DNA of 64,000 bases from assembly GCA_004519485.1 (NCBI GenBank), contig CP038106.1, positions 62,001-126,000 of the forward strand. Reading direction: 5' to 3'. Every line of letters starts with the position of its first letter. The first letter of the stretch is position 1. The DNA comes from Nannochloropsis oceanica (taxonomy: Eukaryota > Sar > Eustigmatophyceae > Eustigmatales > Monodopsidaceae). Under the pieces are notes generated by a model. The model was not told the DNA's origin. It ran no database searches and was given only the letters and a program-made list of their open reading frames with translations. Shown one piece after another: positions 16,557-64,000 of this stretch. Position numbers and translations under genes: made by a program.

Positions 16557-16775
16557 ATGCGCACAGAGCAGGTGCTGCCGCAGATGCCAATGAAGCCAGC
16601 CGTTGCTTGGTGCTGTCTACCGATCGAGGACGCCCCTCAACCTCACATGCATTGAGGACAGGCCCTACACATGCCTTAATCACCGTCTGATTGACCATAC
16701 GCCCTACTCACAACAACAGGCACACTATCCACCTTCCAGTCTTGCTGTACGTCCTGCCAATCGACCAAGGGTGCC
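16557..16775. promoter_or_regulatory. Short divergent promoter region
   Basis: Only 219 bp separate the divergent start codons of the secreted-protein gene and the Derlin gene, so a shared promoter region is likely. No specific motif could be assigned. Confidence 0.45.
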
Positions 16776-18946
16776 ATGACAGCGCCCGCAGCACGAACAG
16801 CAGGAGGATCGAGACGCCTCCTCTGTAGCCTGGTGCCCATCATCCTGCTTCTCCTCCTTCCAGCCACCACCAACTCTGCATACAGCCACAGCGTCGTCAC
16901 AGCGACAAGTACTACGAAAAGGGTCACGACGAGGAGAAGAGATGGCTTTAAGAGAGCACCTTCTACCACGCTGACCTTCATAACGGGCAAGGGGGAGGGA
17001 GCGAGCCCCTTCCTCTCGCGTTTGATGCGGAGAAGGGGAGGAGCGAGCGCTGCTGCTGCGGCCAAGAAGAAACAGAGTCTACTAGAAGAGGACGAGGAAG
17101 ATGATGAGGCTCTGGAGGAGGAGGAGGAGGAGGAGGAGGAGGAGGAGGAGGAAGAAGAAGAAGAAGAGGAGGAGGAGGAGGATGAGGGCGTGACCGAGGA
17201 GGACTTTAATGTACGTGTGAGAGCGAGGCATAGGAAGAGAAAGATATTTGGTATTATTAAAAATGAGTCAGACCCCTCCTCCAAAATCAGTCCTTTTTTC
17301 GCCTTGGTTGATATTTTTCATAACCACCCCCCCCCCTCCCCCCTCCCTCCCTCGTCGTCCTCAGGATGGATCGTATGTCTCGAAGCTCAAGAAGGAATAC
17401 AGACGGACACCGCCCTTGACCAAGGTAAGGTGCAAGGGAGGGAGGACGGGAGGGAGGACAAAAGAGGAAGGACAGCTGGATGATGTCCCTCGGGGCTCAC
17501 CACCCAAACACCGCTCTCTCCGTCCTCCTTCGCTCTCTTCCCTCCCTCCCTCACTCACTGCAGGCCTACCTCCTCACCTCCCTGGGGCTGACGGGTGCGG
17601 CGATGCTCTTTAACAAGAACCAGTGGCCTGAGTGGCTCCTGCTCGACTGGAGCAAGGTCTTTACCAGGCTGCAGGTAGGGAGGGAGGGAGGGAGGGAGGG
17701 AGGGAGGGAGAGAGAGAGGAATGAAAGCAGCTGACGCCCGGGAGGTAGTATCTTCTGATAGGAGAGCGAGGACGTATCAATAATATAGATCATTTCGATT
17801 GCTCTGACCACTTACGCCGCCTCCCTCCCTCCCTCCCTCCCTTCCTCCCTAGCTATGGCGCCCTCTCACCTCATTCCTGTACTTCGGTACCTTCGGCTTC
17901 AACTACCTGCTGTCCGCGCACTTTATGTGGACCTACATGTCCCATCTCGAGAAACTCAAGTGCAAGAATCCGGCAGAGTTTGTGACTATGGTGCGTGCGC
18001 CCTCACCCCCCTCGCCCTTCCTCCTTCCCTCCCTTCCCTCCCTCCCTCCCTTCCTCCCTTGACGGCATCTGTAGACAGACACTCACCAGGAGCTCGCCTC
18101 CTCGTCCTCCTCCCTCCCTCTCCCCCCCCTCTCCTCCTCTCTGGTCTCCTCGCAGGTGGCCTTCGGCGTCGCATTCCTCCTGGCCGGGAGCCAAGTGATG
18201 GGCTTCCAACCGCACTACCTCGGCCACAACCTCAGCTGCTACCTGGTCTATATCTGGAGTCGGATGTTCGAAGGACAGGTTAGGAGAGGGAGGGAGGGAG
18301 GGAGGGAGGGAGGGAGGGAGGAAAGTGTGGGAGAAGAGCGAGGGCGATGGGATGCGAAGTGGGGTTTATTCTTATCTTGCCTTTGTATCACCCTCCATTC
18401 ATTCTCATCTTACTTTCATATTACCTTTTACTCATTCTTATCTTACCTGTGCTATCTTCCATCCAACATTCTCATCATACTTCCACATGAACCTCTTTCC
18501 ACTCTCATCTTACTCCGATACTGCCCTCCATATTTCGATCGACGCAGGACGTGGACGTGATGGGTCTATTCCATCTCCCCGCACACCTCCTTCCCTGGTT
18601 CTTCGTCGCTCAGGTGCGTTGCGTGTTCCCTCCCTCCCTTCCTCCCTCCCTCCGTCCCTGTTGCTACCACATTGATCGACTTAAATCTTCATGCGCATTC
18701 CCAGGTACATCGCCACACCACACAATTACCCACCGCCTCCCTTCCTCCCTCCCTCCCTCCCTCCCTCAGACCGTCGTCCTCGAGCAGGAGCTGCCCCTCT
18801 CGGACCTCCTCGGCATCGCCGTGGGCCACCTGTACCACTACGCTAGCACGCGGAAACTCGTCCGCCCGCCCTCCTTCTTGAGAGATATCTTCGCACAAGA
18901 GAAGCTTCGAAAGCTCTACCGCAAGTTCGAGGATGACTTGCACTGA
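16776..18946 (+). CDS. Derlin (Der1-like) with plastid-type N-terminal leader
   Basis: Exons are 16776-17210, 17365-17424, 17564-17674, 17853-17990, 18156-18278, 18548-18613 and 18770-18946, giving about 369 residues. The core from TPPLTKAYLLTSLGLTGAAM to LYHYAST follows the Derlin rhomboid-like fold, including LWRPLTSFLYFG, the family hallmark after the first membrane span. Derlins form the retrotranslocation channel of ER-associated degradation. This one has 145 extra residues in front: a signal peptide (LVPIILLLLLPATTNSA, then Tyr), a Ser/Thr/Arg-rich transit-like region, and a long poly-Glu tract (residues about 102-137). A leader of this kind marks the symbiont-derived Der1 of the SELMA translocon in the second outermost plastid membrane of red-type complex plastids. 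Localisation here is inferred. Confidence 0.88.
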
Positions 18947-19394: not shown

Positions 19395-20834
19395 ATGTTC
19401 AAGAGACGCGGCGGCAGCCGCAGCTTTTCTCATACCATGACTCCTCTTCCTGCACTACCTGTGGCGGGCTCTCCATCGACCAGTATCACAATTACCCCTA
19501 CCCCCTCCGCATCCTGCAAGAAGGAAGAGAAGGACAAAGGTAAGCAGATATCGCCGCAAAAAGGTGACTTGGGGGGCAACGACAAAGACAACCTCAAAGA
19601 GAAGCAGGATGAGGAGCAGACCGCCCCAAGTGCTACCGCCGTCGATGCTGAGGACAAGGGGGAGGCTTTTACCGCAGGCAAAGCCAACGAGTACGAAAAC
19701 GATGCTGGTGCTAATTTCTCGAAAGATTTTATAAACATTAGCAACAAAAAGAAACTACGGCCTGCTTGTAATTCTAAATCGAAAAGCCCCCGCGACTTCC
19801 ACAAGACTGTTGCAGGCGTTGTGATCGTCCTAGCATTTGCGGCGTCGGCTGCCTCCTCCTACTTCTTCTCTCAACCCCCCTTTGCGTCACGCACATCAAC
19901 AAGAGCGTCCCAACCAAAGGCACCTCCAGAATTCATTCCCCCGTCCACGAGTGGAAGAAGAAAGCGCTTTCTCTTCCTATCCTCTTCCGAGTCTCCGAAA
20001 CAAACCCAAGCCCCACAAGCCCCCCCTGACATCATGCTCTACACCCCCGAAGGTCCCCTTATCCTCGTCCACGGCCAGACCATCGACACGCCTTTCGAGA
20101 ATGCTCGTATCTACCTGCATTACTACCTGGTCAATGCCCTCGATTGGCTCATCCACCCCTTCTTCCTCCAGCGGCCCAATCGCTCCTCCTCTCCCACCCT
20201 TCCTCCTCCAGCCACTCCCACCGTCCCTCGTCCTTCTTCCCAGCCTTCCTCCAGCCCCCCCTGCGGGCTCACTCCAGCACTACACCGGCGACCCAAAACC
20301 TTCCTTTTGAGCCTGGTGGGGGTGGCAGGCACGTCTCTTGCCGGCCACGCAACGGCCGGTCGAGCCGCCCAGGCCGCAGGCCATGCCTTGGTCAAGCAAC
20401 AAGCCGCGCATCGCCATTGGATGGTGGGTCACCGCACCCTTGCCTTTTTGGGGAGGAATGTGGATCGAGTCGGAGTAGCGGTGGTGGCAGTGGGGGAGGT
20501 GGCTTCAAGCCTGGCAATGGCTGCTTCGGGAGTAGGGACCACGGCGTCAGGTTTGGGGTATAGGAGTGCGGGGCAGGTGGTGGGGAGTGCGCAGATGGTA
20601 GCCTCGGGCGTGGGCTGCACGGCAAGGAGCCTGGGAATGTTGGCTTCGTCGGTAGGTGTACGATTGAGTAACAGTGCGGCACGAGTTGCACAGGCTTCGG
20701 CGACGGCCTCTACGATGGCGGCCAAGCGGGCGTGGATTGCGAGGGTGGTGCCGGCGGTGGGGTGGCTGGTGGTTGGTATGATGGCGACAAGCGTGCTGGT
20801 GGACTGGGTGTGGTGCGTTTATACCCGGGAATGA
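19395..20834 (+). CDS. Hypothetical membrane protein with Val/Ala/Gly-rich repeat region
   Basis: One exon, 479 residues, not recognised. Residues 1-130 are hydrophilic and Lys/Ser-rich. A membrane segment lies at about 137-158 (TVAGVVIVLAFAASAASSYF), then a Pro/Ser-rich stretch. A short normal-looking block at about 215-255 (LYTPEGPLILVHGQTID, then ARIYLHYYLVNALDWLIHPF) could be the conserved part. Residues about 350-435 form a degenerate repeat rich in S/A-G-V/L-G units (ASGVGTTASGLGYRS, VASGVGCTARSLGMLASSVG), and a second membrane segment lies near the C-terminus (about 449-477). The repeat resembles amphipathic 11-mers of lipid-droplet surface proteins; that is only a composition argument. 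Confidence 0.65.
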   Translation: MFKRRGGSRSFSHTMTPLPALPVAGSPSTSITITPTPSASCKKEEKDKGKQISPQKGDLGGNDKDNLKEKQDEEQTAPSATAVDAEDKGEAFTAGKANEYENDAGANFSKDFINISNKKKLRPACNSKSKSPRDFHKTVAGVVIVLAFAASAASSYFFSQPPFASRTSTRASQPKAPPEFIPPSTSGRRKRFLFLSSSESPKQTQAPQAPPDIMLYTPEGPLILVHGQTIDTPFENARIYLHYYLVNALDWLIHPFFLQRPNRSSSPTLPPPATPTVPRPSSQPSSSPPCGLTPALHRRPKTFLLSLVGVAGTSLAGHATAGRAAQAAGHALVKQQAAHRHWMVGHRTLAFLGRNVDRVGVAVVAVGEVASSLAMAASGVGTTASGLGYRSAGQVVGSAQMVASGVGCTARSLGMLASSVGVRLSNSAARVAQASATASTMAAKRAWIARVVPAVGWLVVGMMATSVLVDWVWCVYTRE

Positions 20835-21371: not shown

Positions 21372-23834
<2,463 letters not shown>

Positions 23835-53364: not shown

Positions 53365-54723
53365 TCAATCATCATCATAGTCACTCGAGATACTGACCAC
53401 TCCCAGGCTGACCTTCATAGACGTCCGCTGTGCCTGCATCTTCCCCTCCCTCTCTGCCCCCCTCCCCCACTCTATACCTCTCCCCCCTTCCCCCCCTCCC
53501 CCCCTCCCTCCCTCCTCCTCTTCCTCCGTCATCGTCGTCCGAAAGGCCTTGGTCGATCCCATCAAAGAGGAAGGGGAGGTGCGTGGCGAAGAGGAGGAGG
53601 GGGAAGAAGAGACGTGGAGGGGATGACTCAAAACACGAGCAGCAGTAGGACTCGGGACCCGGCCCGAGGCAGAGAAGCCTTTAATGTCGCCGACGGTTGG
53701 AGATAAGGTACGCCGCTGTTGCTGTTGCTGCTGCTCCTGATAAAAGGTGGGGGAGGTAGCAAAGCTCTCGGGAGAGGCCGAATGGAAGATGGGGGGGGAG
53801 CTCAAGGGGGAGGAAGAGGAGGAGGATGCAATGAAGGAAGCAGGCCGACGCCCAACCAATTTCTTGGCTTCCGCCATCCCTCCTTCCATCTCTCTCCCTC
53901 CTGCACTATCCGGAAGAGGAGGGAGATACCGACCGCTGGGGCTGCGTCTAGCCGAGTCACGGTCAGAGGAAGAAGGAGAGGGAAAGAAGGGGGAGGAGAT
54001 GACGTCGCTTTTATGTCGGTTGTGGTGCTTGCTGAAGGAAGGAGAAGGAAGGAAGGAAGGGGGAGAATGCCCGCTCCGGTGGCGGCCATGGCCGGGGCCC
54101 TCCTCTGGTAGCTTGTTGTGGCTGTTGCTGATGCTGTTGCTGCTGCCATCGAGGGAGAGGGCGAGAAGCTCAGGAATGAAGCTGTCGGAGATGGAGGAAG
54201 ATCCCTTGTGGTGCTGGCTACTGCTGCTGCTGATGTTGGTGCGTGACTGGGTGCGCGAGCGAGAAGGAGGCGACAACACGGTGAAGGCCGAGGAAGAGGG
54301 CGGGGAGGAGGGGTTGGAGGAGGGGGCAACCGAGGAAGGGCGACGATGGTGGTGGTGGGAGGCCTGGACGGGGGATGTGACCCTAACTGAGGTGGGGGAG
54401 AGAGGATCAACATCAAGAGAGAGACGAGATGTGATAGAGAGGGGCAAGGGTGGGAAGAGGGGCAGGCGGTTAGTGCTTCCTTGAAGTAATCCATCGCCCG
54501 ACGAAAATTGGGCAGTGTCTCTGAGAGCTAGAGGATTCTCCTCATTTCTGTTGCCGGGCGCGCCAGTGTGGAGCAGTGTAGGGATGGAATTCCGGGTGGG
54601 CCGCCGTTGACGCGGCAGTTGCTGTTGCTGCTGCTGTTGCTGCATCGGTGGCGAGGAAAACGAAGAAGGGGAGGATAATCCGCCGGTAGGAGAGGTGATC
54701 GATGGGAGGCGCGTACGTTTCTC

Positions 54724-54760
<37 letters not shown>

Positions 54761-55899
54761 GGAGGGTTGGGCTGGTCATCTTTTCCCATGGCTGTGACAG
54801 GTTCCGGAGGAATCGCACTCAAAGATAGAGCCAAGGCAGGGAGCTGCGGTGGGGGAGAGAGAGGTGCAACGGGCACGTCTACGGGAAGTGAGAACCCGAA
54901 GGCGAGACATTTCTCCTGAACGAAGGGAATGCTCAACAGCTGCTTAAGGGAAGGCCGGAGCCCCGAATCTGTGGTCAGGAGGGTGCGGACGAGCTCCCCG
55001 AGATGGGGGCTGAGGTACTTGGAGGAAACAGGCTCGTATTTGCCTTTGATGATTTTGGTCATGAGGGTGATGGGGTTGGAGGCATCGAAGGGCAGGCGGA
55101 GGGTGCAGCACTGGTAGAGGAGCACGCCGAGAGACCAGACGTCAGAGCGTTCATTGTACCGTTTGTTTTGGCAAAGCTCGGGGGAAAGGTAGTAGGGGGT
55201 GCCAACCATGGTAGTGGCAAAGGACGTATTGTTGGTGAGGAGCTTAGCTACTCCCAGGTCGCCGATTTTGACGAATTGTCGGCCGGTGGCCTCGTCTTTG
55301 TGAATGAAGACATTGGCAGCTTTCATGTCCCGGTGGAGGATCTGCCGGGAGTGCAGATGGTGCAGCCCAAGGGCGACTTGGACGAAGATGGCCCATATTT
55401 TGTCTTCGGCTAGGCTGCGGTACTTCTCCTTTTTGAGCTTGTAGATGATGCGTTGGAGGTCCCCGCGGTTGCAGTACTCCATGACGATGTGCAACTCGTC
55501 GTGCTCCACGAAGGAGTCGTAATACTTGACAACGTACGAGGAGGCGATTGATGCGAGAATGTTCACTTCATTCACCGCCTCGGACCGTTCCGAATCCTTT
55601 AAATTCGTCAAAGGCACTGTCTTGATCACGTAAATCTTCCCATCCCGCTTCCGCCGCGCCCGATGCACCACCCCGAAGGCCCCCTTTCCCAGTCGTTCGT
55701 CCACGTCAAAATCCGACAAGGACGAGGGCAAGCGCGACGTGGTCGAAGGGGGTGAAGAACGGGATGGACTACGCTTGTTAATTGACGTCGAGGAGGGTCG
55801 CTGCTGCCGCAAGCTGCCCGCGGCGTCGGCTGTTTCAAGGGCCTCCATGGCCTTGTGGCCTGTCGGGAGCAAAGCCCCGTGGCTGACACAGTTGTCCAT
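53365..55899 (-). CDS. NEK-family serine/threonine kinase
   Basis: One exon, 844 residues. The kinase domain spans about residues 60-330: Gly loop LGKGAFGVV, Lys in KIYVIKTV, catalytic loop HRDMKAANVF, metal motif GDLGVAK (DLG in place of DFG, as in many NEKs), activation segment TTMVGTPYYLSPELCQNKRY, and SDVWSLGVLLYQ. The TPYYLSPE segment and the loop sequence place it with the NIMA-related kinases, which act in cilia and mitosis. Residues 340-844 are disordered, with poly-Gln runs (encoded at 54729-54762, 54617-54645 and 53716-53736) and Ser/Pro-rich stretches, and no recognised domain. All catalytic residues are present, so it should be active. Confidence 0.92.
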
Positions 55900-61705: not shown

Positions 61706-62368
61706 ATGGAACTACGCTCAGCGACCAAACCGAAGGGGGAGAAAGGAACGGCGGTGCCTAGAAGGGTGGAGACAGATGCAAGCGCTAGTCCACCATTAGC
61801 GGCAGCGGCACCAGCGGACGTCGCCTCGATGCCCATTGACTCGCGACCATCACCAAAGCCCATGCCCACGCAAACACCTGCTGCCTCGCAAACGGCGACG
61901 GCTGCTATGTCAAGGATAGACATGACGATGAACGAGGAGGACAAAGTGCCACGGGACACCCCATCGTCTTTGACTGCTGCCGCCTCGCTAACCTGTCAAT
62001 TGGCACAGGACGTTCTCTCGGGGGCGGTAAATGCTGTGTGTGAGAGAGTTGAAGGGGAGTCCGACGGGAGCGAAGGTAAAGAGGCAGCGGAGCCTATTTT
62101 GGTGGTTGTTAATTCTGTGGCGACAACGGCCACGGCGGTAGCAGCACCGGCAATGGCAGACGTAGCCATGACGAGCAGCTGTGCGTTGGAAGCGGAGAAG
62201 GTGGAGATGGAGGAGATCGTGTCTGAAGTAGCCGCGGCGGGAGATGGTGTACCTGCTGCAGCTGCAGCACCCTTGACCCTCGCGCTTCCTGGTCCTTTGC
62301 CATCTCCCGGTGGTTCAGCAGAGCTGCTGCTGCTGCAGCAAGAAGGGCGAACCCCCGTGGCTCCCGCG

Positions 62369-62412
<44 letters not shown>

Positions 62413-64000
62413 TACTGCTGCTGCTTCCATCGCTTTTGGGGCTATGGATGACAAAGCAGACCAATTCGTAGACATATTGCCGGCAAATATGGAGGCAGAG
62501 TCATCAAGCATGACCGCACCTGTTAGGGAGGAGAAGCAGCAGAAGCAGCAGCAGCAACAACAACAACAACAACAACAAGAGGGAGATGACGCGATGGAGG
62601 TCGCCACTCCCACCACTGCCGCCGTCACGGGGAATGCCTCCGAGGAAAGAGAGATATCCACAACAGCAGCACCCACACCATCACCCTTGACCCCACCCCC
62701 CTCCTCCTCTACCTCCTCCTCCACCATCACCCCTACGGCCCTTGAGGTCCTCTACTCCCAGCTGCAAGCGGCGCACACCCAGACAGCCACCGCTCAAGCC
62801 CACTGTCTCCAATTAGGAGAGCTCGGCCGGAAACAAGTGGCAGCCTTGCGGGCCATGGTCCTGGGGGAGGTCAAGGATGAGGCACAGACCGTCTTTGCCA
62901 AGTGCCAGGCGGACGTCGGACAGCTTGCGAAGACGCTCGCTGGGTTGGTGGAGAAAGAGAGGACCCGCGCAGCTTATCTCGCGGTGGCTCTGGGTCAGGA
63001 AGCGATGAGGCGACGACAGCTGTTTAATGCCTTGCAGGAAATGAGGGGGAACATACGAGTGCTTTGTCGCGTGCGACCTTCGACCCCTTTCTCCGTCCCG
63101 CCCTCCCCCTCGTCGAAGGGGAGGGAGATGGGCGTTTCGGTGGTATCGTCCACAGAGGTAAGAAGCACGCGCCCCCCTCCCGTCTCTCTTTCTTGTCTTG
63201 TCTGTCCAGGGATGCCTTGCTACCTGCATGTTCAAAGACCTCATTCCCTCTGCCCACTCTCCCTCCTTCCACCATCAGGTCAGCATCCGCACGGACCGCA
63301 TGGGACCGTCCGCCACCGCCAAAGTCTTTGAGCTGGACGCGGTGCTGGGGCCTGAGAGCGACCAAGCCGCCGTCTGGGCAGAGGTACAGCCGCTGGTTAC
63401 GAGCGCAATGGATGGCTATCAGGCTTGTATTCTCGCCTTCGGTCAAACGGGCAGGTGGGTTGGTCTTGGTGGGAAGGGAGGGAGGGTGGCAGGGGAAGAA
63501 AGAGGCTTTAGTGGTGGAGACAGCGACGGCTCAAACATGTGGGAAGAGATACCCGCACCCTAATCCTCTTTCTCTACCCCTTTCCCTTCCTCATTTCCTT
63601 CTGCCCCTTCCTATACTATTCTTTCCTTCATCTCTCTCAGTGGTAAAACGTTCACGATGGAGGGGATAGGGGGTGGGAAGGTAGTGCCTGCAGCTGCAGC
63701 TGCTGCTGCTGATGGTGCCGAGAAGGGGGAGGGGACAGAGGAAGAGGCGATGGAGAATGGGAGAGAAGGCGATGATGCCCCTCCCTCCTCGTCCGACGAC
63801 CTTCCTTTAACGGCTGGTGTGAACCCTCGGGCTCTCGCGGAGCTCTTTCGCCTGAAGGAAGAGAAGGAGGAGAGGGGCCTAGCCGCCGTCAACGTGTCAG
63901 TCTCTATGGTCGAAATTTACAACGAGAACGTCCGTGACCTCCTCGCCTCCCCTCCCTCCCTCCCTCTCCTTCCGCCGGGTGTGGACAAGACCAAAGACAA
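61706..64000 (+). CDS. Kinesin-14 (C-terminal motor), partial at the right edge
   Basis: Exons are 61706-63157, 63279-63454 and 63641 to beyond the window. The first 340 residues are Ala/Thr/Glu-rich with poly-Ala (62376-62427) and poly-Gln (62535-62578) runs. A coiled-coil stalk follows (about residues 345-450). The neck and motor start, RRQLFNALQEMRGNIRVLCR, is diagnostic for kinesin-14, the minus-end-directed class with a C-terminal motor. The P-loop FGQTGSGKTFTMEG is split by an intron after GQTG plus two bases of Ser. Switch-region VEIYNENVRDLL is visible before the edge. After the P-loop there is a long low-complexity insertion (about 63680-63830) not usual in the family. Confidence 0.93.

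Follow-up and report, generated by a model that had tools for sequence, protein, structure and literature searches.

The window, a 64,000-nucleotide stretch of the Nannochloropsis oceanica genome (C1:62001-126000), contains a Derlin gene with a long N-terminal leader, which raises the question of whether its product serves ERAD in the host or protein import into the plastid. N. oceanica belongs to the eustigmatophytes, a group of ochrophytes, and its plastid is bounded by four membranes. A preliminary description of the locus had proposed a candidate channel of SELMA, the ERAD-derived import machine. The gene was analysed together with the remainder of the genome (32 contigs, 29,264,788 bases) in the assembly of Guo 2019 (PMC6610115), the only source of a SELMA inventory for Nannochloropsis that our literature search found, going by the parts of the papers it returned. 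Table 2 of that paper lists only sDer1-1 and sHsp70 with a signal peptide in N. oceanica, gives sUba1 as present without a signal peptide, and enters sDer1-2, sCdc48-1, sCdc48-2, sUfd1, sNpl4 and sUbc6 as not found. A leader-bearing Derlin channel is thus not a new kind of protein, given the published N. oceanica sDer1-1 with its signal peptide; that sDer1-1 may be the window gene, the other candidate being the Derlin gene on C21 described below. A passage of PMC12868398 also includes the sDer1-1 presequence among validated parts for periplastid targeting in N. oceanica, citing Moog 2015 without re-evaluating it, and a passage of PMC12309347 states that Nannochloropsis membrane images agree with a model including SELMA. 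The authors of these two papers may well already accept a working SELMA in this species, to judge from those passages. The main text of the CCMP1779 genome paper of N. oceanica (PMC3499364) contains no mention of SELMA, ERAD, Der1 or Derlin.

The window Derlin gene (16776-18946, plus strand) comprises seven exons separated by GT-AG introns and encodes 369 amino acids (Table 1). Its ATG is the first in frame downstream of a stop codon at 16692, with the frame open from 16695, and the second in-frame ATG is codon 84. The DER1 match scored 104.5 bits (cut-off 26.6), and the first exon holds exactly the codons of the leader. The preliminary description of a Derlin core behind a 145-residue leader was correct. 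Whereas a host ERAD Derlin would be expected to carry no cleavable leader, this gene devotes an entire exon to one. A match to RNA_pol_3_Rpc31 in the acidic part of the protein (22.2 bits, cut-off 30.2) was dismissed as low-complexity noise.

Table 1. Features of the window Derlin gene, in window positions
Feature	Position	Strand	Basis or remark
Signal peptide, residues 1-35	16776..16880	+	Hydropathy, -3/-1 scan, first in-frame ATG; site uncertain, residues 30-35
Transit-peptide-like region, residues 36-103	16881..17084	+	Composition
RGG motif, residues 87-89, common to other SELMA candidates	17034..17042	+	
Acidic tract, (GAG/GAA)n microsatellite, residues 104-145	17085..17210	+	22-Glu run at 17115-17180
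Exon 1, exactly 145 codons, whole leader	16776..17210	+	
Intron 1, GT-AG	17211..17364	+	
Exon 2	17365..17424	+	
Exon 3	17564..17674	+	
Exon 4, Derlin WR motif W204 R205 at 17856-17861	17853..17990	+	
Exon 5	18156..18278	+	
Exon 6	18548..18613	+	
Exon 7, GxxxGH motif GIAVGH at 18812-18829, TGA stop at 18946	18770..18946	+	
DER1 domain, residues 161-335, spliced	17410..18841	+	Pfam PF04511, E 9.1e-30

Within the leader, a crude scan found the signal peptide and transit-peptide-like region expected of an sDer1. Residues 1-35 have a basic start followed by a hydrophobic core, and residues 36-103 contain 18 Ser/Thr, 15 Arg/Lys and 2 Asp/Glu, which agrees with the Ser/Thr/Arg region noted earlier. 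The net charge of the leader, +13, might in principle lead the protein further than the periplastid compartment. Signal peptides throughout were called from hydropathy and the -3/-1 rule rather than with a trained predictor, and by this rule an internal transmembrane helix in the leaderless Derlin on C18 was flagged as well. The preliminary description had placed cleavage at Asn-Ser-Ala^Tyr; the signal peptide itself was borne out, but the exact site is uncertain, as this one puts Asn at -3 and cleavage could instead fall at TNS^A or at LPA^T, the site that the scan favoured. Depending on the site, the +1 residue is Tyr, Ala or Thr. This choice bears on destination: under the diatom rule an aromatic +1 residue sends a protein on to the stroma (passages of PMC12136025 and PMC11528492), and passage over the inner two membranes requires both an aromatic +1 and a positive net charge, according to a passage of PMC3017844. 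Cleavage before Tyr would therefore predict stromal targeting, in conflict with the plastid-membrane location that the preliminary description itself favoured, whereas cleavage at TNS^A or LPA^T leaves a non-aromatic +1 and the conflict disappears.

The preliminary description had suggested searching the genome for a second, leaderless Derlin, and a whole-genome DER1 search recovered two, on C5 (300 residues) and C18 (at least 228 residues, the 3' end of the model being incomplete). The search returned four loci in all, the remaining two being the leader-bearing window gene and a gene on C21 (C21:572000-575000, minus strand), whose 380-residue product has its own signal peptide and basic leader and is a candidate for the other sDer1. 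DER1 scores were lower for the leader-bearing Derlins (104.5 bits for the window, 92.5 for C21) than for the leaderless ones (202.3 and 161.1), fitting the former as a putatively diverged pair. The window Derlin shares 28, 25 and 29 % identity with the other three, and W204 R205 of the WR motif and the glycines and histidine of GxxxGH are invariant in all four. Scans of viral contigs, both close and distant, and of prokaryote genomes found no Derlin.

Leader-bearing copies of other SELMA-type components co-occur with the window Derlin. The Cdc48 on C22, a stretch joined by eye, contains CDC48_N and AAA domains behind a leader spread over two exons, which starts MAPTEG, continues to a predicted site CAVTLA^AISGPSS and then, past the exon junction, reads RWLQLIRGGAS. 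An intron-rich Cdc48 gene on C8 starts MGEPSGKADDG, is leaderless and looks like the canonical Cdc48. Two types of sCdc48 are discussed in a passage of PMC5070193. AAA proteins on C2 and C18 were dropped as further Cdc48 candidates, as by eye they look to be of NVL and AFG2 type, respectively. The frame of the C22 Cdc48 (minus strand) ends in EEEDLY, with Tyr apparently the last residue of its Hb-Y-X proteasome-docking tail. Ufd1 is likewise represented by a leader-bearing copy (C29) and a leaderless one (C17); the C29 protein scored 27.6 bits against UFD1_N1, below the cut-off of 29 (20 bits for a partial spliced model), and is on this evidence a candidate diverged Ufd1. No leader was seen in the part read of a Ufd1-like gene at C21:327301. 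Npl4 has a single locus in the genome, with no leader visible in the part read, and no leader-bearing Npl4 was found.

Among ubiquitin-conjugating components, the E1 at C1:1195189 has a signal peptide with almost no transit-like stretch behind it, and the E1 on C17 has no signal peptide; this comparison covered those two, with further E1-type matches lying on C9 and C12. The genome yielded 25 UQ_con (E2) matches, several being exons of a single gene, and reading frames were inspected at ten loci. Spliced to 344 residues, the E2 at C8:891822 starts with a signal peptide and a long leader, and its E2 domain spans residues 205-325 (E 6.2e-27). The E2 at C7:653343, which came from the signal-peptide scan, combines a signal peptide with an E2 domain, ends in a hydrophobic tail and appears by eye to be Ubc6-like. 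Proteasome subunits gave 39 matches, of which five were chosen for long frames, and four of these five N-termini carried a signal peptide. Such subunits, found on C16, C11, C17 and C28 and belonging to the 20S proteasome, point to a putative periplastid 20S proteasome, which is expected rather than new, since a passage of PMC5070193 reports 20S core subunits in the periplastid compartment of ochrophytes.

Compared with Guo 2019, our reading of the same assembly adds a second Derlin, a single Cdc48 and a Ufd1, all three with leaders, as well as a Ubc6-like E2 with a signal peptide and a signal peptide on the second E1. The two analyses agree on sNpl4, and no second leader-bearing Cdc48 was found here. 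The entries of sDer1-2, sCdc48, sUfd1 and sUbc6 as not found in its Table 2 appear, judging from these gene models, to be wrong; a separate leader exon in the case of Cdc48 and strong divergence in the case of Ufd1 could explain the misses. A passage of that paper treats the apparent lack of most SELMA components in Nannochloropsis as an exception in keeping with its idea that a red-algal nucleus overthrew the host nucleus. The leader-bearing candidates weaken this support for nucleus overthrow and would align the oil-producing N. oceanica with other ochrophytes.

A leader-bearing Derlin beside leaderless ones, together with leader-bearing Cdc48, Ufd1, E1 and E2, upholds the proposal of a candidate SELMA channel in this respect; the part that placed an acidic tract at the channel entrance did not hold, as set out below. 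We infer from these features that SELMA is present in N. oceanica, and consider it very probable that the window Derlin is one of two symbiont-type Derlins of its translocon in the second outermost plastid membrane. Its location, partnership and direction of transport would then be as follows. The signal peptide would direct the growing chain via Sec61 into the chloroplast ER, and the basic leader would bring the N-terminus over the periplastid membrane. The core would thereby become embedded with its two termini on the side of the periplastid compartment. The window Derlin, probably with the C21 Derlin, would form a channel for ubiquitin-marked preproteins, which the leader-bearing Cdc48 with the leader-bearing Ufd1 would pull from the periplastid side. 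That compartment would be the former symbiont cytosol and hold Cdc48, with cargo leaving the chloroplast-ER lumen towards it, and the leader with its acidic tract would cross the membrane and end on the exit side. The single Npl4 with no visible leader, the sub-threshold score of the C29 Ufd1 and, if real, the Tyr at +1 count against this explanation.

Were the gene to start at Met84, the next in-frame ATG, or were its hydrophobic stretch to stay uncleaved, the product could be a host ERAD Derlin with a disordered N-terminal extension, and its ordinary core with WR and GxxxGH would suit that role. We give this very little credence, because two leaderless Derlins with higher DER1 scores are available for the host role, the reading frame of exon 1 is open well upstream of Met84 and shows, in the correct order, a basic start, a hydrophobic core and a stretch of Ser/Thr/Arg, and signal peptides recur on copies of Cdc48, Ufd1, E1 and E2. 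Very little credence is likewise due to residence in another plastid membrane or the chloroplast ER, with a quality-control or envelope function. A Tyr at +1 would favour onward passage by the diatom rule (passages of PMC12136025 and PMC11528492), and the discussion in Guo 2019 (PMC6610115) cites a proposal that a Der complex replaced TOC, but two of the three possible cleavage sites leave no aromatic +1, the expected periplastid partners are present with leaders, and acidic leader residues hindered stromal import in the diatom tests described in a passage of PMC3017844.

In accord with the claim of about 35 acidic residues, residues 104-147 of the window Derlin contain 36 Asp/Glu and no Arg/Lys, with a longest Glu run of 22 (residues 114-135). 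The run is encoded by a (GGA)n array of 24.7 copies (17114-17187). Runs of ten GAR units with at most one mismatch occur at six places in the window (3828, 11657, 12989, 15640, 17115 and 43342), five of them mismatch-free, and could encode poly-Glu if in frame; the search gave 37 overlapping matches in the window against none in 100 shuffles. Such tracts are therefore not rare in the window, and this one is a (GAG)n microsatellite. Nor is it likely to face the channel entrance. Both termini of Derlins face the cytosol in ERAD, and as the periplastid compartment would be the former symbiont cytosol, the tract would lie on the exit side. No acidic tract was found in the 380-residue spliced model of the C21 Derlin. 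Given the array, the six such places and this lack of a tract in the C21 protein, we take neutrality as the default; expansion of a microsatellite that the protein tolerates is the most likely account of the tract. A functional tract that binds emerging basic transit peptides or Cdc48 cofactors on the periplastid side would be compatible with a SELMA Derlin; 36 acidic residues with none basic, and an acidic stretch likewise located behind the RGG of the leader-bearing Ufd1, speak for it, but we consider it unlikely in view of the array and the C21 Derlin. The simplest role, if any, might be to help halt onward import of the protein's own leader into the stroma, the one function for the tract to which the diatom experiments considered here would point (a passage of PMC3017844).

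The leaders share a further feature. Five long leaders contain RGG 46 to 66 residues past the assumed signal-peptide cleavage, as RRRGGAS in the window Derlin, RVRGGVQ in the C21 Derlin, LIRGGAS in the C22 Cdc48, HVRGGAK in the C29 Ufd1 and TTRGGAS in the C8 E2, and the C7 E2 has INRGGKS just behind its signal peptide. RGG is the sole non-homopolymer three-residue word common to all five. In composition shuffles of these leaders, 48 of 20000 shared any such word and 1 of 20000 a word without Ala. Among 11 signal-peptide-bearing candidates RGG occurs in six, whereas 19 of 10000 shuffles had any word in six or more and none of 10000 such a word lacking both Ala and Ser. RGG was spotted post hoc, for which the any-word counts allow, and the choice and borders of the leaders were set by us. 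SSL, made up of common leader residues, also occurs in six of the 11, so that the count alone is not unique. RGG[AVSTK] within 110 residues past the signal peptide was found in four of 93 signal-peptide-like ORFs, many of which are probably not genes, and these four are the two leader-bearing Derlins and the two E2s. A laxer scan found RGG in 13 of 139 ORFs, eight of them among the best 60 of the 139, including short, probably spurious ORFs.

RGG was rejected as a general periplastid mark, being absent from all four signal-peptide-bearing proteasome leaders. It was also not found in the stretch past the signal peptide of the E1, nor in the stretches seen of an FtsH-like protein and a light-harvesting-type exon, both named by eye and with stromal-type leaders. 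Against its specificity, an unnamed ORF in the window (MHTKHCRG...) with a stromal-looking leader has RGG about 46 residues past its signal peptide, and an Hsp110-like protein has RGGV inside its domain. Of seven Hsp70 stretches at or upstream of the domain start, only C8:173086 has RGG before the domain (TRGGASNEKDKDSKIQGPCIGIDLGTTYS); Hsp70 matches on C3, C12, a second place on C13 and C32 lay outside this comparison. In this Hsp70 (C8:172550-173100, with matches up to C8:177562, plus strand), a candidate sHsp70, RGGAS lies directly ahead of the domain, and an upstream exon would be expected to encode a signal peptide.

Arg-Gly-Gly is the tail of ubiquitin. In a literature search combining RGG, periplastid and transit peptide, the only paper found concerned Toxoplasma (PMC5487736), passages of which flag RGG in a plastid ubiquitin-like protein as a possible site of deubiquitinase action, report that the internal RGG of this protein is not processed, and state that a peripheral maturase is likely required for peripheral apicoplast proteins to mature. 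In diatoms, stromal cleavage favours Leu at -2, unlike RGG, according to a passage of PMC3774753. On these leader sequences, RGG may be a real shared signal of the proteins concerned, although we see slightly more reason to doubt this than to accept it; that RGG, followed by Ala, Val or Lys, is the site at which a periplastid protease, perhaps of deubiquitinase type, matures SELMA proteins is doubtful. If true, it would provide a substrate motif for a putative periplastid maturase and distinguish SELMA proteins from those of the stroma. RGG offers a cheap, testable handle on maturation or retention of periplastid proteins, which remain hard to predict: of those in its own reference set, ASAFind 2.0 recovers 25 % (a passage of PMC12136025).

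Among known systems, Phaeodactylum tricornutum similarly has a symbiont Derlin pair, sDer1-1 and sDer1-2, beside a host pair (Table 2 of Guo 2019, PMC6610115). Diatom sDer1 proteins have a bipartite leader (a passage of PMC11528492, and general knowledge), a likeness drawn from published descriptions; unlike them, the window Derlin has a 22-Glu run within its leader region. The published N. oceanica sDer1-1 is a Derlin with a predicted signal peptide from the same species, but the paper lists one such Derlin where the assembly holds two. Toxoplasma gondii Der1AP is, by its description in a passage of PMC6115763, a plastid Derlin that works together with plastid Cdc48 and Ufd1, although in an apicomplexan. 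The core of the window Derlin aligns with structures of human Derlin-1 (PDB 7y4w, 7czb; E 8.1e-10), which in contrast is an ER protein without a leader.

Other features of the window include, 3' of the Derlin gene, a 479-residue ORF (19395-20834, plus strand) with no Pfam family at E 0.001 and a hydrophobic, repetitive C-terminal part. A RING-finger exon at 21772-22155 (minus strand) perhaps belongs to a splicing-factor type protein. An 844-residue protein kinase, Nek-like by eye (Pfam Pkinase, E 1.2e-62), is encoded at 53365-55899 (minus strand), and a protein with a Microtub_bd match at 61706-63331 (plus strand) may represent the N-terminal portion of a minus-end kinesin.
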